A stretch of DNA of 64,000 bases from Karstenula rhodostoma CBS 690.94. Its lineage: Eukaryota > Ascomycota > Dothideomycetes > Pleosporales > Didymosphaeriaceae. Positions 5,983-42,340 of this stretch are shown here, piece after piece. The position numbers and the translations under genes are program-made. The notes beneath the pieces were generated by a model. That model did not search any database and had not been told where the DNA came from. It was given only the letters and a program-made list of their open reading frames with translations. Each line of letters opens with the position of its first letter. Position 1 is the first letter of the stretch. The DNA lies in assembly GCA_010093485.1 (NCBI GenBank), contig MU001494.1:188758-252757 (forward strand). The letters run 5' to 3'.

Positions 5983-7689
5983 TTGTTTGCTTCTTCCTCC
6001 GCGACCATGATACTGCCACGTTCACTCTACAACGATGCCCCACCTGAGCGCCGCACACGCATCGCCAACAACCCCACGCTTCTCTACAGCTGGTGGTGCA
6101 CCGTCTTCTCCCTCGTCATCATAGGAACCCGACTTGCTGGCCGCTACATGCGGAACGACCGCCTCTTCCGCGAAGATAAGATCATGGCAGGAAGCATCGT
6201 TCCACTTCTGGCCCGCATGGCTCTCATCCACGTGGTCCTGATCTGGGGCACCAACAATGCCGACACCTCCCAGCTGACAGATCCTCTCAAAATCCAACAC
6301 CGTGAAATCGGCGCGAAACTGGTCATCGCAGCCAGGATCTTCTACACCATGTTGTATGTTCCATGTTTGCTCCTCGCCTACCTGAGCTAATCTGCCCGCA
6401 GCATCTGGATGGCCAAGTTTACTGTCTCTGAGTTCCTGAAGCGAATGACGGAACGATTCTGGAAGAAAGGCTATGAGCTTGGCTTGCGTGGCATCCGCAT
6501 ATTTCTGGTTGCCACATTTGTCGCCGTCTTGATCGCAACTTTGTCAGAGTGCCGCCCTTTCCAGGAAAACTGGCAGGTCGTTCCGGAAGCAAAACCCACC
6601 TGTCGCCAGGGATATGGCCACCTTCTTACCATGGGCACTACCGACATCGTTACCGACCTGCTGCTTGTCCTTTTCCCGATACCAATCATCCTCGGGTCGA
6701 CCATGTCCATCAAACGCAAGCTGCAGTTGGTCGCGCTCTTTTCCATGTCCATCGTTCTCGTCATCATCACTGCAGCCCGCATACCGCTGGTCATCGGGAA
6801 GAGTGGCTTGCAACAGTATCGTACTGTCTGGGCCTCCTCGGAGATCCTCGCGGCGACGGGCGTCTCGAATGCGATTATCCTAGGGTCCTTTCTCCGCGAC
6901 AGGGGAATCAAGAAAACAAAGTACAAGCCTGGATCAGCCACCGATAGCATGGACCGTCGATCTTCGACGCGGCGGACGTTACAGGATTGTGACAGCGACG
7001 AGGACCTTGCTCGATCGCTAGGCTATCGGACAAACCCCGAGCTGATGGACGAAAGAGCAAGCATCGCAAGACCTGCTCAGGTCGTTGATATCAATCTGCT
7101 CAACCCGCGACCCCCACGCGGACCACCACCTCCATTCTCGACGCCCAACTGGCAAGCCAGTAAGATCTCGGAGAAGTCTGACTATAGCGGCGACTCCGAT
7201 CTGAAAGACAGGGACAGCGAGGACCCGATCCCCAGCCCACGTGTAATGGGCGGCAGACGGGTGTCTTTCTTCGATGTAGGAGGGCTTTTGGAAAACGGGC
7301 CGGTCACAGCGCCGTCACCGACAGACTCGGTCGTTGCGCAAGACTTCGCGCCACAGCCGCGGCGGCCGTCAAGAAGCTCACTTGCTCCAAGCGGACGATC
7401 CTACATGCTTGGTCGACGAACATCGCGATTGTCTCAACAATCGGAGGAGTACGAGTTGGGCACACGTTCTGGACCTCAGCTGCAAGACACAGGAAATCTT
7501 TTGGCTGAAAAGGACGAACTAGACGCGCAGACGGAAACCGCTGCCCCATCAAACACCAGAGCACCAACCGCACAATCTACTCGACCACTCCTAGCCCGAG
7601 ACAACCCAACCCCTCTTCTCCGTACCCCGACTGCTACGAGCTACGCCAGCGTACCCAGCTTGCAGGACGCCGGCGGGCTTCTTTCTTAA
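5983..7689 (+). CDS. PTH11-like / rhodopsin-fold integral membrane protein
   Basis: Member of the large fungal family of seven-helix membrane proteins usually annotated 'rhodopsin domain' or PTH11/SAT4-like, thought to be receptor-like; ligand unknown. Two exons, 5983-6353 and 6402-7689, joined by a 48-nt intron (GTATGT, branch GCTAATC, CCGCAG) give 552 aa. Seven hydrophobic segments fill roughly residues 30-305. The conserved loop ECRPFQENW..P..K.TC precedes the later helices, and the core ends SNAIILGSFLRDRG, typical of the family. There is no CFEM domain. About 240 C-terminal residues are polar and Ser/Pro/Arg-rich, a likely cytosolic signalling tail. A downstream in-frame Met (position 6007) is an equally plausible start. 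Confidence 0.85.
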
Positions 7690-8347
7690 CATATGCGTGA
7701 TACCCATGGCTTTGACCAGCCACCTTCCTACTTATGTCTTTCACTCCTCATTCAGCGCGAGATATACCCGGCATCCGTTCACGGCGTTGGACGGCCATGA
7801 TTTATGCTTTACGAACTCTTTCTACCATAATGAGAGGGAATCCTCGGCGGTCTTGGGACCGTATACTGTGGCACTACCCAAGTGTTGGTTTGTTGGTACG
7901 TTGGTACGTTGGTATGTCTGTACCGAGGAGTGCAGTGGTGGCATACGGCGCTCGATGCGCCCGGTTCTTGGAACACTGTACGATATAGCACCTCGCCTTG
8001 CATGACATACGTCAAGCCGGCGCACGTAATGCAGTCTATATTACCATCGCGATCTATGACGTGCCTGTAAAGTGCTCTACATGAGCGTGCATCTGGTTCG
8101 GAGAATTTTCGTGGTGGGTTTGCTGGCAGGGATGGCTCGCTTGGGGGCCGTGCGAGCCGGTGGGCCCCAGGGTTGAGGTCCCTGCGGGCACTATGGGTAC
8201 AGTGGTGTGTTGCTGAACCGCGAACGGCAGGTTTTTCCACGTCGTGGTCTCGATGTTAACACTGGTGTTCATTCAAAATCGGTTGGCTGACCTGGTTGTT
8301 CAAATGCGCTAGCTTCATCGATACAACATCCACCTGCCTACCCTCAC
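7690..8347. other. Intergenic; 3' region and promoter of the JmjC gene
   Basis: No coding frame or RNA gene recognised. A short tandem run of about 9 bp units (GGTACGTT variants) sits near 7893-7915. Confidence 0.5.
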
Positions 8348-33550: not shown

Positions 33551-33585
33551 GTTTTGTATTTAGTGAGGTGGAGTGGTGCGGGGTG

Positions 33586-33634
33586 GGTAGGCAGGCAGGC
33601 AGGTAGGTAGGTAGGTAGGTAGGTAGGTAGGTAG
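33586..33634. repeat. (AGGC)n/(AGGT)n microsatellite
   Basis: Four-base tandem repeat in the pan2 3' flank, beginning with AGGC units and continuing as AGGT units, immediately before the first array module. Confidence 0.9.
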
Positions 33635-33701
33635 GGGAATTTTATTCATAAACGAGATGGTTGGTGGTGGGTAACGTTGGTTGATGTCGGACGAGGAGGG
33701 G

Positions 33702-33778
33702 TATAAATTCCCTCCTTTCCCTGTCTATATACGTTTTCTCCCTACACTCACTTTGTCGTCGGGCTTGCTTGACTAAAA
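33702..33778 (+). promoter_or_regulatory. Leader module 1
   Basis: TATAAATT at 33702, CTACACTCA about 40 nt downstream, then GGGCTTGCTTGACTAAAA ending at 33778. The first spacer follows at once (33779-33796). Confidence 0.65.
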
Positions 33779-34005
33779 TGGACCGCAACGCCCACTCATG
33801 GACTTGTCCTGTGCTTGAAAAATACAGGGGACACCAACATATGGGAGACTCTCTGCTTGTGTCTAAAACTCGTGTGCTGCCAAGCTATGGTGGTGGCGTG
33901 GTTTCTTGGTCCAGACTTGGAGAGTGTCTGGGTGTGTGGTGGTGAGTATCGTTGCAATGTGATGAGGGGGGAGAGGGGAGGTAGGAGGGATGGAAGGGGA
34001 GGAGG

Positions 34006-34077
34006 TATAAATACTACGTGTCAGGGTGATACGTTTTCTTCACACTTTATCGCCGGGCTTGCGTTGCGTGACTAAAA
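34006..34077 (+). promoter_or_regulatory. Leader module 2
   Basis: TATAAATA at 34006, CTTCACACT at 34038, GTGACTAAAA ending 34077. A purine-rich G/A tract of about 45 nt precedes the TATA element. Confidence 0.7.
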
Positions 34078-34297
34078 CCTACTAAGTGCCTAGCTATAGG
34101 GTTCTCCTGTGCTCCAAAAACTTGAAGAATAAGGACACATGGGAGGCTGTCTGCCTGCCTGCGTGTGTCTAAGAGTGAGAATATTCGCTTCATGGCGGTG
34201 GCGTGGTTCCTTGGTCTTATGGTGTCTACTATTGAGAGCGTCTGGGTGTGTGATGGTGAGTATCACTGCCACAATATTGATGTTGGACGAGGAGGTG

Positions 34298-34368
34298 TAT
34301 AAATACACCCTACTTCTCGCGTTTAATATTTCTCTTCACACTACGTTTGGAGGGGTGGTGGACTAAAA
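34298..34368 (+). promoter_or_regulatory. Leader module 3
   Basis: TATAAATA at 34298, CTTCACACTA at 34334 (36 nt downstream), GGACTAAAA ending 34368. Confidence 0.7.
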
Positions 34369-34619
34369 GCCAATATAATAATTATTATAGGATTGTCCTG
34401 TTCTCTAAAACTTTGATGGGTAGGGCGCATGGGAGACTGTTTGTATGTGTGTGTGTGTGTTCAAAAGGCGTGGGCTTGCAGTGATATGGCGGTGGTGTGG
34501 GCTCTTGTTCCTTACTATCAGGAGCGTGCCTGGGTGTGTACTGGTGATGAGTATCGCCGTGGCTCGTCAGTGCTGGTGCGGCTCCGTCGGTACTGGTGCG
34601 GCGGGAGCAGAGGGAGGTG

Positions 34620-34689
34620 TATAAATACACCCCTTTCTCTCTTTCTGCATTTTCTTCACACTATGTCGAAGAGGGGCGGCTGACTAAAA
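34620..34689 (+). promoter_or_regulatory. Leader module 4
   Basis: TATAAATA at 34620, CTTCACACTA at 34654 (34 nt downstream), TGACTAAAA ending 34689. Confidence 0.7.
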
Positions 34690-34908
34690 TCGCGTGCAAA
34701 AGTACCCATGGGCTTTTCCTGTGCTCTAAAAATTCAAAGAACAAGCCGGCATGGGAAACTGTCCGCCTGTGTGTCTGAAAGTCTATATTCGTCCTATGTA
34801 CGGCGGTGTCCTGCTCCCTGGAATCGGATTCTCGCACTATGAGCCGGAGGCAGTGATGGTGATGGTGATACGCAGTACTATATATAGTAGGAGGGAGAGG
34901 AAAAAAGG

Positions 34909-34977
34909 TATAAATACACCCCGCTTCTCCCCTTCTACGTTTTCTTCACATTTCGTTCACGGGGTGGTTGATTAAAA
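34909..34977 (+). promoter_or_regulatory. Leader module 5
   Basis: TATAAATA at 34909, CTTCACATTTC at 34944 (35 nt downstream), TTGATTAAAA ending 34977. Confidence 0.65.
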
Positions 34978-35177
34978 GAAAATCCCGACACGGCGCATGT
35001 GCATGTCACGTGTTCTTCAAAAAGCGATGCGAGTGCTTCTTCTTTGTCTAAAAGCTGGTATTAATCCTTGTTATGGCGGAGTCGTGGTCTCGGTCTCCTG
35101 TTCCGTTCCCTCGACATCGAAAACATCGCGCGCGTGTGTGATAGTCATTGGCACCATCGTTTGAGCTTGCTTGCTTG

Positions 35178-35418
35178 ACTGAAAGCTGGTCGTGAATCGG
35201 TTAATGGGGGTTTTCTGCTGCTTCTAAAGATGCATTGCGCAATGTCCGAGGCTGGGGCTGGGGGTGCTTTTTGGTTGAAATGCTACTCGCGCAGCTCCTC
35301 GGTAGGGGGTTGGTTCGTTTCTCCAAAACTCAGTCATGGATCGTGTATGTGGGAGGGCTTGCGGGTGTGTGACAACCGAAGCCGCTTGGTGTTATTGGAC
35401 GGGGAGAGAGGGTTGGGG
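35178..35418 (+). repeat. Sub-array 6
   Basis: Starts with a TATA-less leader (GCTTGCTTGACTGAAA ending 35184). Spacers at 35185-35202, 35230-35247, 35281-35298, 35329-35345 and 35376-35393, i.e. 18, 18, 18, 17 and 18 nt. Repeats are more degenerate than in modules 1-4 but keep the AAAA/ACAA 3' edge. Confidence 0.65.
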
Positions 35419-35491
35419 TATATATACTGTTTACTTGCTGTGGAAATCTTGTTCTTTACACTACACATCGAGCTGGGCTTGCTCAACAAAA
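35419..35491 (+). promoter_or_regulatory. Leader module 7
   Basis: TATATATA at 35419, CTTTACACTA about 35 nt downstream, then GCTTGCTCAACAAAA ending 35491. Confidence 0.6.
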
Positions 35492-35812
35492 AAGTAGAGA
35501 CGATCAAACCATGTGCTGTTTTGCTGTGTCTTCTGAAAACGTCAGTAAATCATTACATGTGGGGGAGTGCTTGTGTGCTTGAAAATGCAGAAAATGAGTC
35601 ACTATGGGGGATTTCTCGTTTCTCCACAAGTCAATTTGGAACTGCTCATTGGGGAGTAGGCGAGTATCTAAAACAGCAGAGCTTGGTGCTCATGGGGAGG
35701 TGTGCGATGTTTTCTGAAATTTGGACTAGAGAGGCTGTACGAGGGAGTAAGCGCGGGTGTCCAAAATCCCATCGTTCAGGTATTGGTGGGAAGTGTACCT
35801 GTGTGTCCAACA
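35492..35812 (+). repeat. Sub-array 7, seven units
   Basis: Spacers 35492-35509, 35540-35555, 35586-35602, 35630-35646, 35674-35690 and 35720-35737 (18, 16, 17, 17, 17, 18 nt), plus one less sharp after 35766. Repeats keep (C/T)ATGGGG or CATGTG at the 5' edge and TCTAAAA, CTGAAA or TCCAAAA at the 3' edge. The run leads straight into the next TATA element. Confidence 0.7.
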
Positions 35813-35877
35813 ATATAAAGCTCGCCCGACGAAGTGAACTCTTCACACTACTTTTAAGCCTGCTTGTGCAACTAAAA
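35813..35877 (+). promoter_or_regulatory. Leader module 8
   Basis: TATAAAG at 35813, CTTCACACTA at 35841 (28 nt downstream), TGCTTGTGCAACTAAAA ending 35877. Confidence 0.6.
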
Positions 35878-36480
35878 TGGCAGCTCTCAGACCTAATGGG
35901 CTTGTCTTGTAGGCTCTGAAAACATCAGTGACGCCCTCCGATGGGGGGATCTTCGCGAGGTCCAAAATGCAGTTTCAGCTCCTGCTATGGAGGGAGTCTG
36001 CTCGTTAGGTTAAAATTAGTACACATCGCTACATGTGGGAGTGGGTGCAGGTGTCTTAAAACGCATAGAAGACCTTTCGATGAAGAGGAGTGACTCTTTG
36101 TCCCCAACTCCGAAACTCAGTCTACGGGGCGAATTTCTTACGAGGAATCTGAGAGGAGCGGTTGACTAAAAGCCGTCCGGGTTACGGCCCATGGGCTTGT
36201 CCTGGATTCAGAAAGACCACCAGAGTTTGCACATGGGCTTTCCCTGTGTCTTGTAAAAGGCAAAAAGATGCCAGAATATGGGATACTGTTTGTGTGGTGT
36301 AAGATTTGCCGTTTTGCTCTTACTATGGAGGGAGTCTGGCCGTGTGCTTGAGGTTTGCATGGGGAAGTAGACACAGATGTCTGAGGACAGTACCGCTCAG
36401 GGTCATGGAAGTTTCTGCGTGGTTGCTCAAAATGGATGAATTCAAGATGATGGGGGATGTCTCCCTTTCCCTCTGATATC
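35878..36480 (+). repeat. Sub-arrays 8-9
   Basis: Spacers 35878-35895, 35923-35940, 35968-35985, 36016-36031 and 36062-36079. A TATA-less GTTGACTAAAA leader ends at 36171, then come spacers 36172-36189, 36215-36231, 36259-36276, 36305-36323, 36387-36403 and 36433-36449. ATGG-to-ATGG distances in the second part are 42, 45 and 46 bp. One unit near 36350 is shortened, showing local slippage. Confidence 0.7.
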
Positions 36481-36540
36481 CACCTCATCATGATCTTGGC
36501 GGTTTGGTTCGCTGTCTCTGCCTGTGCAGGGGGAGAGTGA

Positions 36541-36613
36541 TATAAAACACCGCTCCTATTTGCCTTCGAACTCTTCTCTTTGCAAGATGGCTAAGAGTAA
36601 TGGGTGACTAAAA
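36541..36613 (+). promoter_or_regulatory. Leader module 10
   Basis: TATAAAA at 36541, CTCTTCTCTTTGC about 30 nt downstream, GGGTGACTAAAA ending 36613. Confidence 0.6.
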
Positions 36614-36950
36614 GGTGCTTCCAGACGAAATAATGGGCTTTTCCGGTGCTCTAAAAGTACCAGATATCACAATCAATGACGGAGAATGGCCGCGCATTGT
36701 TTGAAATCCATAGCTCATATGTTCATGGCAGTCTGCCTTCGTCTCCAAAAACCGGACCCGTCTTTGTCATGGGCTGGTCCTGGGCTCTAGGATGCCATTC
36801 ACCTGCCAGCACGGAGGGGTGCGCTTGTGCCACCACATGTTGGTCTGCTTTCCTCTCCAAAACTCCGATTCACCTCTATTGTGGGTGGTCTTGAGTCCCA
36901 AAATCCCTACTGTCGAGACATGGAAGAGTGTGCTTTGAGGCTCAGAATCT
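36614..36950 (+). repeat. Sub-array 10
   Basis: Spacers 36614-36631, 36657-36674, 36707-36723, 36751-36767, 36793-36810 and 36863-36880, with a shortened one at 36904-36918. One unit (about 36835-36862) directly abuts its neighbour without a spacer. The first repeat again carries the R1 form. Confidence 0.65.
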
Positions 36951-38714
36951 CGAACATTGTAGCCTTGCCATCGTAATTGGATATCGCCCAACATGGCGCT
37001 GCCGTATAGGGGGGATTATAAAAACACTCATTAGTGCTGTGGCAGCTCCCATTTTGGCGTACTGTAGGTAGTTGAAATTTTGGACACACAGGCTCACCCT
37101 TCCATTAACCCGCCTTGTTTCCACAGCAGTTTTAGGAGGAAAGGGCAGCTCCCCATCGTGCGTCTCTCATAATGCTATTCGTTCGCCCAACCATAAGACA
37201 CACGCAATGATCTTACTCGTTACAGGACACACGCATGAGACCTGCTCCTGTAGTGTTTTTGGTATCAAAACCTACTCACAAGTGTCCAATATATCGTGCA
37301 TCTTTCTGAACCACGCAGTCACATCCTCCATAGCGAGTACGATAATCGGATTATAGATAACAGAAGGAGCGCGCCATGGTGTTTTCTTCTTTCCTCCCAA
37401 AGTTACTCAACCCGCCCCACATGGGAGTCTCCTCCCTCCTGTTTCCAAACCAGGAGTCTGATTATTGTTGTTGTGGATATACAATCTTTCTTAGCACCGA
37501 TAGAAGAATACAGCCAGCGAGTTGGAGCTGTCAGCCTTGTTCAGCACGCTTTTTTCGGGTGGACATGACCAAAAGATCTCGCAGCCAGCGCCATGTGCTC
37601 CTCCTGCATTCTCCAAAATCAAGTAGATTTCAAGTGACGAATAAGTCTACTTGCTTTATTATAACTGCACCAAGGTTATAATACGAGAGACTCCTCGTTC
37701 CTTTAAAATTTATTTACTCGGAAATATGATGGTGCGATTTGCGCGTGTGTCCAAAACCCTATGAGCTATAAGGCATGCTAGAGATTTGTTCGTTAAAGCT
37801 CAACGCGAAAACCATGCATTGAATCGTCCCTTTTTAGGGTTCGAAAAGCTGGCATACCATTATGGAATGGTGGACTCCTCGTTATTGTGGAAAGCGTCCA
37901 CTGAAACGGTATGGGATTCTCCTCCCTTTATCCCAAGAAAATTCGTCATGTAGATGCTTAGCTCTATGTCTTCCAGGGAAAGTATCACGAAAATAACGAG
38001 CGGAATAAATGTCACTCATTAGGGTGGCGTGTGTTCATGCCTATCCTTCAACCATGCCTGACTAAAACCTCAATACCTACATGCTTATGGACGCGTTCTG
38101 AGTCTGTTGAGATTAACATATTGAGTTTTGATGGAGGACTGCTTGCGGGGCTTAAATTCTCTACACTTACTGCTATGGAAGATGGTGCTCCTGTATCCGA
38201 CAATATTTTCTGCCGCACATATAGCAACGTTTCTGTGGTCCATAAAATGGTAGCGATTGGAACGATATGCACTGCGCGCTGTTTTAATCTTTATATAGCC
38301 TTTGCTATGCTGGTATGTATAAATATTTGTCCAAAAGTTTTTGCAGCATGCCGCATCGAGGTACTGTTTTTGCTCGACTAAAAGAGAGAAGGAAGGAGAC
38401 ATGGGAGCGTCTGTAGTCTACAATTTTTCGACTAGGAGTTTCTTGGAAGCCTTTTTCCTGTTCTGTCCTACAAACACTAATCAGTGACCCGCACAGAAGA
38501 GTGTTCTTGGTCATTCCGCAAACACCGGCAGTTGGATATGAACCCATCGATGGGCCTGTCCTGTGCTCCAAAAGCATACGACGTGGATGGAATAGGCTGG
38601 GGGATTGGGATAATGCGTTTCGCTAGAAGAGATCGAATATCTCTATCATGGTGTACGCTATGCCAGGGGAAGAGCATGTTAGAATATAGGATTGTGGCGT
38701 CGATCGTGATACGC
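36951..38714 (+). repeat. Degenerate part of the array
   Basis: Unit structure is patchy but still detectable. Clear spacers: 37402-37419, 37575-37591, 37757-37773, 38068-38085 (after a GACTAAAA leader at about 38060), 38113-38129 and 38157-38173. TATA-like elements lie at about 37018 and 38318; the latter is followed by GCTCGACTAAAA ending 38383. Many repeats have lost the AAAA edge. I read this as the oldest or most mutated stretch. Confidence 0.5.
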
Positions 38715-38895
38715 GAGAGACTATAGCACCTCCCTCTATTTATATACTATGTCTATAACTTATCTTACTCTATTAGCCCTTAAATTTATCCTATTCTATA
38801 GTATTTAAGTAGTATTAAGATAGTTAAAGTAATAATAATTCTAGAGCTATAGTTATATATAACTTACCTTACTAATTACTTTAATACTCCCTTCT
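38715..38895. repeat. AT-rich island inside the array
   Basis: About 180 bp made almost entirely of A/T with many TA steps (for example TCTATTTATATACTATG), sharply different from the flanking sequence and similar in texture to the right-edge AT-rich block. It probably represents a small RIP-mutated insertion that interrupts the array. Confidence 0.6.
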
Positions 38896-40479
38896 CTTCG
38901 CGCGCCTTCCTATTGTCTTCCACAACTCTAGGATCCCCACATGGTATACGCTAAGTGTCTAAATACATAACTGGTGAACAAGTATAGAGTCCTGTGCTTG
39001 GACGAAACCTGACTGCGCATAGGATGATATTTCTGGCGTTTGCAAACGAACGCGTAAGTCTCTTGGTGAGACGCCGCTTGTTGTAGCAAAGCAGATGGAT
39101 GTGCAAACCATGGGATGGTGTGCCTGTGGGTTTTAAAGTGTGCAAGATTTGCAATGATGCGGTGTCCCGCGCTCGAGGAAAAATAGGAATTAGGGAGTGT
39201 ATAGAGCTGCTCCTCACTCCAAAAGACGCGAATCCAGCCCATGAGAAGGTTGTGTTTGGGCCGAGACGTGTGGAAATATCTAATTGATGCGGACGTTTGT
39301 AATCTATAGAGTAGGACATATGTATGGGAAATTTTATTGAAGTTTGATGGCGTTGTGCTTGTTTGCTTCGAATATAAGACTTCCTGGGATCATGCTGATT
39401 TCATGTGCTTCAAAAACGTCTCCGAAGAGTTGATGTGGCTGAGTGCGCGTTGCACCGAGAATCGAATGTTCACAAACGTGGTGGCGTGCGCCGGTGTCTG
39501 AGATCTGAGACTGAATAAGGCTGTGGGGATATCTCGTGCTTTCAATGTGTCATTACATGTATGATGGAGAGTCAATGGTAGCTCTAAGCTTCGGTATCGG
39601 TGCACGTATTTCTCCTCAAATCACATACCTGTAGCTTACTCCCTCCCATGGAATCTGAGCCTAGCTCGACTAAAAGGTTTCGTGTGACATACCATGGCCC
39701 AGCGAGGCGTGTCTTGAAATCACAGCTTTCCCTAAATATAGGAAGGATATTGCTCGGTGTCTAAAAGTATCACTCAACTTTGGACAACTATGAGGCCGTA
39801 TGGAGTCCTACCGTGCGTCAAGGATCCGAACACCAGATATTTGATAGATGAGTGTTCTTGCCGGCCAAAAGAACCACGGGGCTACCACATGGGTAGAAGT
39901 GCGCTGGGAAATTCTCTTCTGTCGACAAAGAACATAAATACTGGCCCTTTGGCCCTAAATTTCTTTCTCCACAGTTTCCCTGGTATCGAAAAAACGTTGG
40001 GCATACAGGAATCCATGAGATCTTTTTTAAGCGCCTAGAACACATAGGCATGTGTTTCATGGAAGTTTGCTTGCGACCTTGGATTCCTACATCTACCACA
40101 TGGGTGGGGGTGCACTCGAAGATTACCCTGGTGATGCAAATCATCATCACAACGTGAACGTCCTGGTCTTCTCTTCTCCAGTAACCCGTAAAGGCATGCA
40201 TTACCTTTTCCTGTCCCGTTTCCTCTACATATTGACCTCGCCACTCCCAAAAAACGAAAATAACAGATATCGCTCGCGCATGTGGTCCGTTCAAAATTCC
40301 TCTGGCTCCAGTGAATAGTGGGACTGCTCCGCGAACCTGCAAAAGTAAGAAGACCCATTATGGGTAATCTTTCCATCGCTTGGCCGTTCTCACTAGCCGA
40401 TATGCGTGCTGGGCGGCCATCTATCCATATCATGATTATCGCCACCTTTATTAGCCGCTGCGCACACAAAGAAAGAGCT
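38896..40479 (+). repeat. Array remnants after the AT-rich island
   Basis: Mostly degenerate. Convincing pieces: leader AGCTCGACTAAAA ending 39675 with spacers 39676-39692 and 39720-39736, and spacer 39871-39887 before a CATGGG repeat. Between these the sequence has scattered CATGG and CAAAA edges without regular spacing. No protein gene is recognised. Confidence 0.45.
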
Positions 40480-40540
40480 TATAAACCACCGCCTTCCCGC
40501 CCTGGTGATTCTTCACACCGACTCCAAAGCTTCACTAAAA
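40480..40540 (+). promoter_or_regulatory. Leader module 15
   Basis: TATAAAC at 40480, CTTCACACC at 40511 (31 nt downstream), TTCACTAAAA ending 40540. Confidence 0.6.
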
Positions 40541-41247
40541 AAGGGAGAAAAGGTGGATGATGGTCTTTCTTGGCTTGTCCAAAGGTCCTTGATCTCCGAC
40601 CCATGAGTGGGCTCTCTGTGTCTCTAAAAGGAGCGAAGTAAGATGCTTTTGAGCATCTAGAGCCGACCTGGCCAGATCGCGCTGTACGGAGAAGAGTTGC
40701 GGTATCGCGATGCCCACCATCATCATCATCATCATCATCATCATCACTGTTTTTGAAGGATGTGCTGAAAGGGATTAGAACTATAGAACCTGTTTCCGCC
40801 TCTCCTATTCTGTCCACTACAGTTTCCAGTGCGCTTGACTAAAAGATGGGTGCAATCATATTATGGGCTTCCTTGGAAGCCCTGGAGTTTAAAACATCTA
40901 ACTACTCAGAAAAATGTGCGTGCGTCTAACGCTTGCCAATATATCCTCTATGTACTGCTTATTGTCATCATCATCATCATTATCGACATCGTTAGTCTCC
41001 CTGCTGGAAGGATCAAGTATCTATAAGTACCACTCGCACCTGCGTTTCGCTATTCCCCACAGTACATTTTCCAGCGTGTTTGGATAAAAACCGTATCTTT
41101 CTTGTACCATGTCTTCCTAAACTCCAAAAGCAAAAACACATGTGCGGAGCTGTGCTGTGGCTCCAAAACCCGACCAATCTCAAGTCATGGAAGGTTGACC
41201 TTCATCACTACCATCATCAATCTGCATAACAGAACGAGTCAAAAGCT
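40541..41247 (+). repeat. Sub-arrays 15-17 with ATC/CAT microsatellites
   Basis: Spacers 40541-40558, 40585-40601, 40845-40861 (after TTGACTAAAA at about 40836-40844), 40895-40912 and 41169-41185. A (CAT)n/(ATC)n run at about 40719-40747 and another at 40968-40985 lie upstream of the next leader. A TATAAG-type element at about 41022 precedes a GGATAAAA leader. Confidence 0.6.
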
Positions 41248-41314
41248 ATAAAAACCCCTCCTACCAGACCTATACTGCCCTTTCCACTGCACTTGTGAAT
41301 TTGCTCGACTAAAA
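41248..41314 (+). promoter_or_regulatory. Leader module 18
   Basis: TATAAAAA at 41248, CTTTCCACTGC about 32 nt downstream, TTTGCTCGACTAAAA ending 41314. Preceded by CAT/ATC-rich sequence (about 41198-41220). Confidence 0.65.
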
Positions 41315-41742
41315 CAGAACGAAAGCTTTCTGTATATGCCTCCCAGGGTTTTTACAAAGATATTCAACCCAATCAATTCTCATGGGTGGAGCTGTGCTGT
41401 GTGTCTGAAATCGCGAGCTGCGAGTTCCCATGGAAGGGGGTACCAACAATATCATGATGAAGCTCATCACCGTCATCATCCTGCTGCTCAAAGTTCAAGC
41501 AGGCTATGATACTCCTCCTACCAGACCTATACTGCTCTTCACACCACCCTCGAGTTGCTCGACTAAATGTACAAACACTACAAGTGATGTGTGTCTGAGT
41601 GGTTAAAAGAGTTAATCGCATCTACGAATGGGGAGATCTGTGCTGTACATCTAAAATTCCTACCCATACTGGTATGTACAAGCATCATCATCATCACCAC
41701 CACCATCCCCCCACCCAGCCCATACCCTAAACCATACATAAG
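41315..41742 (+). repeat. Sub-arrays 18-19
   Basis: Spacers 41315-41332, 41361-41380, 41411-41428, then leader 19 (TATGATA at 41505, CTTCACACC at 41537, GCTCGACTAAA ending 41567), spacers 41609-41626 and 41657-41672. ATC/CAC triplet runs lie at about 41450-41482 and 41680-41707, each upstream of the following TATA-like element. Confidence 0.6.
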
Positions 41743-41811
41743 GTATAAATTCCCTATCATTTATACTCCTCCACCATCCACACCGCCCTCGGGTTGGTTG
41801 CTCGACTAAAA
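41743..41811 (+). promoter_or_regulatory. Leader module 20
   Basis: TATAAATT at 41743, CATCCACACC about 32 nt downstream, GGTTGCTCGACTAAAA ending 41811. Confidence 0.65.
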
Positions 41812-42012
41812 GAAAACAACAATGGAACACATGTCCCTCCCTCCCTGGGTGTCTAAGAACAGCGAAGCATTCATCCCATGAGTGGATCCGTCCCGCAGAT
41901 CCTAAACCAATCGTAATCGCTCTCCAAGGCTGGACGAATGTATAAAATAGTGATGGTTGTTATTATCACCACCCTCCCCCCTCCCAACCCACACCCCAAA
42001 TCGAACACAAAG
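41812..42012 (+). repeat. Sub-array 20
   Basis: Spacers 41812-41829, 41859-41876 and 41907-41924, all 18 nt. The first repeat begins CATGTCCCTCCC and ends GGGTGTCTAAGA, a variant that recurs as CATGTGCC.. at 42100 and 42241. Confidence 0.7.
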
Positions 42013-42081
42013 TATAAATACCGCCTCCTCACCCACGCCTGTTATGTTCTTCACACTACCTTTCAAGTTACTCAACTAAAA
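42013..42081 (+). promoter_or_regulatory. Leader module 21
   Basis: TATAAATA at 42013, CTTCACACTA at 42049 (36 nt downstream), TTACTCAACTAAAA ending 42081. An ATTATCACCACC stretch lies about 50 nt upstream. Confidence 0.7.
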
Positions 42082-42340
42082 GATCAAGAAGCTGAATTCC
42101 ATGTGCCTCCCTCCCTGGGTGTCTAAAAACAGACCCAGCTAAGTTACATGGGTGGACTTGGGTCGTGCGTCTAAAACCATCCTGCCAAGCATAATAGCAG
42201 GATTCGGGTCGTGCGTCTAAAACCGGCACTCACCTGAAATCATGTGCCTCCCGTCCTGGGTGTCTAAAATGATTGGATACCAAGCAATATGGCTGGAGTC
42301 GGATTGCGCGTCTAAAACGAGATTAGGGTTAGGGTTAGGG
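42082..42340 (+). repeat. Terminal sub-array: six consecutive 18-nt spacers
   Basis: The cleanest run. Spacers 42082-42099 (GATCAAGAAGCTGAATTC), 42129-42146 (ACAGACCCAGCTAAGTTA), 42177-42194 (CCATCCTGCCAAGCATAA), 42223-42240 (CCGGCACTCACCTGAAAT), 42270-42287 (TGATTGGATACCAAGCAA) and 42318-42335 (CGAGATTAGGGTTAGGGT). Intervening repeats are 28-30 nt and all end GTCTAAAA. Two repeat flavours mix: one ending CTGGGTGTCTAAAA, the other ending TGCGTCTAAAA. The last spacer slot is telomere-like, and no repeat follows it. Confidence 0.85.
42323..42340 (+). repeat. Interstitial telomeric repeat (TTAGGG)3
   Basis: Three perfect TTAGGG units followed by extra G. They fill the last spacer position of the array and mark its right end. 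TTAGGG is the usual telomere repeat of filamentous ascomycetes. Confidence 0.9.

Follow-up and report, generated by a model that had tools for sequence, protein, structure and literature searches.

As judged from its sequence, the genome of Karstenula rhodostoma CBS 690.94 (GCA_010093485.1) almost certainly contains a genome-wide family of tandem arrays sharing one grammar: a TATA box, ~35 nt (a distance bounded by the chosen TATA search window), a TTCACAC-like element, a G/T-rich leader of ~25–30 nt, and then at least one unit, with runs of up to 8. Each unit consists of [AT]CTAAAA, a variable segment (spacer) of 18/19 nt, ATG[TG]G, and an A-poor linker. The arrays are noncoding. One of them spans 33.70–42.32 kb on the + strand of the window, which is the whole analysed stretch of 64,000 nt (contig MU001494.1, positions 188,758–252,757, forward), with the constant signals [AT]CTAAAA and ATG[TG]G placed 18–19 nt apart. 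A sequence-only reading had treated this array as a single curious locus built on a degenerate 25–30-nt repeat, overlooking the TATA-type promoters inside it and its dozens of sister loci elsewhere in the genome. The linkers are in fact locus-specific and variable in length; the fixed parts are the two short signals and the spacer that they frame, and the so-called repeat is the A-poor linker, mostly ~19–40 nt long. The features of the window array are as follows.

33702..42318, + strand: whole array, with 63 scored spacer units that include degenerate ones and perhaps a few chance cases, single or in runs, and interspersed TATA-type promoters
33702..33778, + strand: first promoter-like stretch and leader, with TATAAAT, the element CTACACTCAC, and GCTTGACTAAAA
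33779..33945, + strand: first run, with spacers at 33779–33797, 33822–33840, and 33869–33886, and linkers ATGGACTTGTCCTGTGCTTGAAAA and ATGGGAGACTCTCTGCTTGTGTCTAAAA
34006..34259, + strand: second composite unit, a paralogue of the first by alignment and linker pairs, with similar linkers and 3/3 spacers different
34298..34560, + strand: third composite unit, with TATAAATACACCC and leader CTTCACACTACG
34620..34880, + strand: fourth composite unit
34909..35160, + strand: fifth composite unit
35814..36032, + strand: four-unit run with a TATAAAG promoter at 35814 and spacers at 35878–35895, 35922–35940, 35968–35986, and 36016–36032
38661..38943, + strand: dispersed repeat of ~280 bp with dozens of genome copies, inserted in the array and outside the system
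42013..42081, + strand: last promoter, with TATAAATACCG, TTCTTCACACTACC, and a leader ending in CAACTAAAA
42082..42318, + strand: best-kept run, with spacers at 42082–42100, 42129–42147, 42223–42241, and 42270–42288, and a unit at 42177 with a degenerate downstream signal, ATAG
42323..42340, + strand: three TTAGGG telomere repeats at the array end, immediately behind the last CTAAAA

The six successive 18-nt segments previously counted at 42082–42335 thus include four clean ones, whereas one carries the degenerate ATAG and the last (42318) enters the TTAGGG repeats. The neighbouring genes, pan2 and an MFS gene, are ordinary, as already noted from the sequence.

Periodicity and segment length

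The existence of a repeating array was borne out by autocorrelation over 33.55–42.36 kb, in which lags 43–49 were elevated above 100 dinucleotide shuffles (z, 3.7–4.5). The period of about 46 bp proposed earlier is recovered as a broad hump rather than one sharp period, because the linker length varies; units of one run are spaced by ~46 nt. Lags 2, 3, and 6, reflecting short simple repeats, outscore lags 43–49. Of 29 exact CTAAAA words on the + strand of the window, 21 are followed by ATG[TG] at 17–19 nt (2, 7, and 12 cases, respectively), against a background mean of 0.42 per distance at 0–9 and 30–69 nt. When 148 units from outside the window served as the training set and the length prior was flat (8–32), the models found 37 units in the window, 31 of them at 18/19 nt, as compared with a mean of 0.29 units at 18/19 nt (maximum, 2) in 100 shuffles and two units, neither at 18/19 nt, on the reverse strand.

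With the full model, 64 units were scored in the window, with spacers of 19 nt (33 units), 18 nt (26), 17 nt (4), and 20 nt (1); the 64th is a telomere repeat. The near-constant length described before is thus retained, but the preferred values of 18 and then 17 nt become 19 and 18 nt by the present boundaries, since the pyrimidine preceding ATG had been assigned to the repeat. Also in agreement with the earlier description, there is no identical spacer pair among the 64; the C4 locus contains one. Across 17 stretches, two of which (C3s and C3s2) partly overlap, 538/649 units have spacers of 18/19 nt under a model with a learned length preference, whose control scans (78 and 95 units) likewise lean to 18/19. 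As this model and the density models were trained on their own loci, the former also with learned lengths, the leave-window-out scan with its flat prior is the fair test.

The genome-wide family and its promoter-like signals

A pattern combining promoter and unit gave 61 matches in the 44.3-Mb genome, none in the reversed control, and 7 when the spacer was set to 23–26 nt as a control. These matches define 31 loci on 11 contigs, or 38 loci on 13 contigs once arrays confirmed by unit density are added. The density at array loci is 2.6–9.6 units per kb on the main strand, with no more than 0.6 on the opposite strand; 29 control loci of ~3.2 kb each contained 7 units altogether. A genome total of ~2,000 units was extrapolated by hand from 551 units in stretches holding 16 of the 61 pattern matches, and is a rough figure because the 23 sampled stretches were chosen partly by pattern match. 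By a hand count, a contig end is no more than 300 kb away for about one-third of the 38 loci, which is about chance, and enrichment at contig ends was rejected. Searches with the right end and the whole window array as queries (40 of 154 candidates scored for the latter) returned nothing beyond this array and the dispersed repeat inserted in it. The loci are alike in grammar and not in sequence, and these searches find no sister array, which argues against recent spread by copying.

Within the arrays, TATA-led leaders recur and are not confined to one end. A TATA box 40–69 nt upstream occurs 65 times for 281 first-in-run units, that is, before part of them only, versus 3 times for 309 later units.

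Spacers have a near-even base composition in nearly all stretches, and the linkers, which differ in length and sequence between loci, contain 3–15% A and 5–37% C (52% C in one 29-nt sample). In 58 paralogous linker pairs, which are not mutually independent, the core identity is 0.81, and the neighbouring spacers are at the level of unrelated sequences in 53/58 and 54/58 pairs. Paralogues keep linkers and mostly replace spacers, and the earlier argument that the array is not an evenly decaying minisatellite is upheld. Among overlapping, hence non-independent, windows with both flanks at least 70% alike, the identity of the middle is 0.96 outside spacers (659 windows) and 0.48 in spacers (30 windows); in three same-length pairs with both flanks at least 80% alike, the spacer identity is 0.61. 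Turnover is not universal, in that some spacers of the L063 array are better kept than their own flanks. Spacer likeness across loci (69 versus 49–50 in three shuffles) shows a weak excess, with 20 versus 5–6 within the same locus.

The spacers fold no better than shuffles, no pairing of hairpin arms was found unit by unit, and the spacers show no preference for pairing with their own linkers, the own upstream linker pairing slightly less than others (z, 2.3). Rfam models gave no match to the window array up to an E-value of 1. High-scoring spacers (17 nt or longer), compared with 247 kb of the own genome including arrays, had 7 matches outside arrays with at most two mismatches, versus 17 in one shuffle; one of the 7 is a single place counted twice (L019, L050). 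Same-strand matches in other arrays at two mismatches numbered 3 versus 0 for shuffled spacers, with 1/3 in register, and one spacer searched genome-wide found itself alone within two mismatches. A search with concatenated spacers missed even its source locus and, being without power, shows nothing. In viral contigs, a search for such arrays gave ten matches; the density there, with 22 units in 94 kb over both strands, is that of chance.

Possible roles and relation to known systems

The proposal that the array is a source of short RNAs is retained as a likely role on the sequence evidence. In the best reading, for which we see about an even chance, the arrays would encode noncoding precursors of RNA polymerase II type, whose exchangeable, guide-like segments may serve RNAi. 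Transcription of the runs by RNA polymerase II would start from the TATA box and yield short noncoding precursors, in which the two signals flanking each segment, together with the A-poor, G/U-rich linkers, may mark where it is cut out or loaded. The segments would then act as exchangeable guides, most likely in Argonaute-type silencing and possibly after copying by an RNA-dependent RNA polymerase (RdRP), whose antisense product would read U-N18/19-UU (21–22 nt). Units could be duplicated and their segments then rapidly replaced or diversified, with the linkers retained, which would give rise to new segments. The genome has four places that strongly match the Piwi domain, one of which is fragmented and contains stops (either broken or intron-split), as well as two weak ones and three RdRP places, one with internal stops; it is the presence of these genes that would connect the arrays with Argonaute. 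Among candidate partners, an SNF2-like gene was rejected as a scrap inside the C4 array with a Pfam match below the cut-off. A Fanzor/TnpB/Cas12f-like nuclease was likewise rejected because the genome has no match to PF07282; the family matches 6/14 control genomes (eukaryote, 0/6), and since these include no eukaryote, a divergent Fanzor may still exist.

The protein-binding ruler suggested earlier is still a live rival, although we consider it rather unlikely. It takes CTAAAA and ATG[TG]G as half-sites bound by a protein or RNP that recognizes DNA or RNA, with the 18–19 nt setting a distance and their sequence meaningless, and it accommodates well the fixed length, the near-random content, the lack of excess spacer matches elsewhere, and the weak cross-locus excess. 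A meaningless spacer should not outpace neutral linkers, yet paralogues keep linkers and lose spacers; moreover, the linkers are A-poor whereas the spacers are not, and some L063 spacers are kept where their flanks are not. It is improbable that every unit, or every run, forms a very short small-RNA gene of its own, with the signals serving as transcription start and stop rather than in processing, in the style of nematode 21U-RNAs (type I piRNAs). The 21U loci likewise consist of very many clustered, hypervariable short segments, each beside a fixed motif and without a hairpin, and about half of the present runs (162/317) are single units. A Ruby motif lies upstream of each 21U-RNA, whereas here the TATA box precedes runs, often of several segments, and hardly occurs before later units, for which the ~46-nt spacing leaves no room for separate TATA promoters. 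The 21U-RNAs are Piwi-bound; the present arrays are known from DNA, in a genome with Piwi-domain genes.

Similarly improbable is a selfish, satellite-like family of promoter-bearing noncoding repeats spreading between loci without guide function, as the ~38 loci, decayed copies, and telomere repeat at one end might suggest; the loci share grammar and not sequence, copying has not been recent, and the grammar is kept. Minisatellites and satellite DNA are also tandem and fast-evolving, but here the grammar alone is kept, the parts of the unit turn over unequally rather than decaying evenly, and promoters are positioned. A relic of protein-coding or of splicing, such as small exons or micro-ORFs, to which the spacers ending at ATG and the L063 family could point, is refuted in the main and very improbable: open reading frames from unit ATGs have a median of 19 codons versus 22 from other ATGs, ATG–ATG spacings modulo 3 are 77/78/97, a 5′ splice-site-like word occurs in 13/266 linkers, no three-base pattern extends across loci, and the kept open frames of protein-coding gene families were not found in the arrays. 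The L063 spacers differ mainly at every third base and are readable as T-P-M-E-Q-M; a degenerate search found 7 places, of which 4 belong to the L063 array; the remaining 3 compare with ~1.3 expected by our own estimate, and the reversed control gave none. Among these three, C14 is situated within another array, in an open frame that was rejected as a partner (no Pfam match, one genome copy, PDB matches at chance level). As neither a three-base pattern nor a transition bias was seen across loci, the idea of spacers as coding targets was dropped, and the L063 pattern remains an oddity.

The arrays resemble CRISPR arrays in their unique segments of near-constant length, recurring signals, orientation on one strand, and exchange of content while the rest is kept; TATA-led, promoter-like leaders exist as well, but they recur inside the arrays. 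They differ in that no near-identical direct repeats are present (the linkers vary), the 18–19-nt spacers are shorter, the loci are many and spread over many contigs, promoters stand inside the arrays, and the genome is a fungal nuclear one with no cas-type neighbour within the window. On present evidence the arrays are not CRISPR by descent, and acquisition of such an array by the fungal genome is highly improbable, also given the absent PF07282 match. Fungal milRNA and siRNA loci likewise occur in organisms with Argonaute and RdRP genes, but the present arrays show no hairpin precursor and have tandem, fixed 18–19-nt segments with a grammar of their own. Box C/D and H/ACA snoRNA clusters share the tandem guide-bearing units (the guide role being putative here) and differ in spacing and motifs, the window array giving no C/D or H/ACA match with the Rfam models.

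No prior description of such arrays was found in the part of the literature covered, which included a minority of subscription papers and preprints, and we know of no other eukaryote with such a layout. It is conceivable, though doubtful, that they form a heritable, updatable library of ~2,000 short guides at ~38 promoter-bearing loci with cassette exchange, that is, a fungal RNA-guided memory or immunity of an origin independent of CRISPR and animal piRNAs. To our knowledge, coded exchangeable guide repertoires are so far known from prokaryotic CRISPR and, in different form, from animal piRNA loci. If the segments are guides, fungi would own such a coded, exchangeable repertoire, and fungal RNAi would gain a dedicated library; even if they are a ruler only, a grammar kept at ~38 loci with such fast turnover of letters would represent a new kind of noncoding element.

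Unit organization and segment length

The window array is built of tandem units, each consisting of the signal [AT]CTAAAA, a variable segment, ATG[TG]G, and an A-poor linker. Splitting at CTAAAA-like words gave the order [AT]CTAAAA, a non-repeating 18–19 nt, ATGG or ATGT, a G/T-rich stretch, and the next CTAAAA. The features of the window are as follows.

33.70–42.32 kb, forward strand: the array
33.68–35.16 kb: five composite units (promoter-like stretch plus its run of consecutive units)
38661–38943: dispersed repeat of ~280 bp within the array
40716–40754, 40970–40990, and 41678–41707: within the array's right half, short CAT microsatellites that recur ahead of promoters
42323–42340: three TTAGGG telomere repeats, immediately following the last CTAAAA
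63001–64000: strongly AT-rich stretch (GC 0.19), in abrupt contrast to the remaining window

The period of about 46 bp proposed in the sequence-only reading was recovered as a raised autocorrelation over lags 43–49. Using signal models trained solely on other loci and permitting lengths of 8 to 32, the segment measured 18 or 19 nt in 31 of 37 window units (mean, 0.29; maximum, 2, in 100 dinucleotide shuffles), bearing out the length control claimed in that reading, and its statement that no two segments are alike held for the 64 window units with the full model (identical pairs, 0), one of which is a telomere repeat. At least two consecutive TTAGGG were absent from all other array stretches fetched. 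Of 154 candidate matches to the dispersed repeat, 40 were scored; they gave 39 places besides the window copy, with main matches 71–91% identical. The adjoining PAN2 protein shows 85% identity to Bimuria novae-zelandiae and Kalmusia proteins, which places the fungus in the Pleosporales, close to Didymosphaeriaceae.

A plain tandem repeat was ruled out because the window array is far too degenerate, with just three short arrays detected in or near it by Tandem Repeats Finder (33582–33635, 34561–34602, and 40718–40746). Neither reading frames nor frame-keeping distances (coding), nor splice signals (splicing), nor hairpins or arm pairing (hairpin precursor) were found in the units, and no Rfam family matched the window array; these readings were also rejected.

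Among 649 units from 17 stretches, two of them partly overlapping, the segment was 18 nt in 248, 19 nt in 290, 17 nt in 56, 20 nt in 41, and 14–16 or 21–23 nt in the other 14. Control scans with the same model yielded 78 units (reverse complement) and 95 units (reversed), which also favor 18/19 nt because the model had learned the segment length. The first letter was A in 80% of 35 segments of 20 nt, so that part of the length spread may be slippage in the A run. Segment composition is near-even in nearly all stretches. The linkers contain 3–15% A across the 17 stretches and 5 to 37% C (52% in one 29-nt sample), and their sequence is locus-dependent and unlike between loci. The A-poor zone extends ~20 nt on either side of the segment and stops behind the last unit. 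Single units make up 162 of the 317 runs, and the longest run has 8 units. TATA[AT]A was located 40–69 nt upstream of the signal 65 times for 281 first-in-run units and 3 times for 309 later units; a recognizable TATA box is thus in place for part of the first units only. Examples read TATAAATAC, ~35 nt, TTCTTCACACTAC, ~25 nt, GACTAAAA, and then the segment.

The unit grammar recurs across the genome

The same grammar is found in many places of the 44.3-Mb genome (29 contigs), in which the window occupies C3:188758–252757. A two-unit pattern gave 47 clustered matches versus 23 when reversed. With these matches grouped at 25 kb, 18 places were examined, 17 of which carry 2.6–9.6 units per kb on the main strand; the remaining one, L060, has no units. 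Control stretches around an unrelated repeat (29 of ~3.2 kb) contained 7 units in total. Searching for a TATA box followed by a leader and a first unit gave 61 matches versus 0 reversed, and 7 when the segment was set to 23–26 nt; six of these seven are exactly 95 bp (contigs C4, C11, C12, C16, and C18) and may be one separate dispersed repeat, and the seventh lies inside an array. The 61 matches, grouped at 25 kb, correspond to 31 loci on 11 contigs, and to 38 loci on 13 contigs with the density-confirmed arrays. By rough extrapolation from 551 units in 23 stretches containing 16 of the 61 matches, the genome would hold ~2,000 units. No sequence similarity between the window array and the others was found (40 of 154 candidates scored in one search), the likeness being in grammar alone.

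Stretches L063 and L064 contain adjacent arrays in both orientations, and a spacer-family search revealed an additional array on C14 (stretch L073). The latter includes an unassigned 139-codon frame (1218–1637) containing a match to a C13 spacer family. A protein-coding-like scrap (SNF2-like DESH...TATP, under the Pfam cut-off) lies inside an array on C4 (L046, ~1860–1990).

Segment turnover and linker retention

In the five composite units, the promoter and linkers are largely alignable and the segments are not. In a C2 unit pair, the linkers are alike and the second segments unalike, with the first segment pair still having 11 of 19 letters in common. All stretches together yielded 58 linker pairs whose cores, with the signals excluded, agree to at least 75% (mean, 0.81); the segments beside them were at the level of unrelated pairs in 53 on the 5' side and 54 on the 3' side. 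Most compared segments therefore turn over fast. Exceptions are several segments in L063 kept better than their own flanks, segments common to a few duplicates, and a segment identity of 0.61 in the three pairs of equal length whose two flanks each agree to at least 80%.

The main rival to a guide role of the segments is a binding-site ruler, in which the segment only sets the distance between the signals. Such a ruler accounts for the fixed segment length, but leaves the contrast between retained linkers and lost segments unexplained; the retention of locus-variable linker letters in copies whose segment is lost favors replacement or diversification of the segments.

Across loci, segment likeness slightly exceeded that of shuffles (69 versus 49–50). 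The C2 spacer AATGGCTTAACGAGGATGT (L034/L035) and a decayed C4 unit (L048, ~361) lie in the same register between unrelated flanks and agree at 17 of 19 positions, which may be chance. On the reverse strand of L063, near 7107–7957 of the reverse complement, five related spacers are readable as T-P-[MLI]-E-Q and differ mainly at positions 2, 5, 11, and 14.

Possible mode of action and relation to known systems

From this organization, we infer that RNA polymerase II would transcribe the arrays from the TATA box, with the TTCACAC element as the start region, that the flanking signals would mark where the segments are released, and that the released segments would serve as guides. Piwi-domain genes (four strong places, one fragmented and with stops that are possibly introns, two weak ones) and RdRP genes (three places, one with internal stops that are possibly introns) are present in the genome, with no connection to the arrays seen. 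Two divergent Piwi-domain proteins with weak Pfam scores are encoded on C20 (L079, 579–2912, from C20:639700–642700; and C20:344958–345401) in long frames of 1109 and 1086 codons, respectively. Matching tests of little power found no segment targets.

No published description of such arrays was found in the literature searched, whose coverage is partial, so that an earlier mention is possible. The nearest systems in way of working are CRISPR arrays and nematode 21U-RNA clusters, but by the tested features the fungal arrays are members of neither. With the reserve set by the partial literature coverage, we regard these fungal arrays as new in kind.
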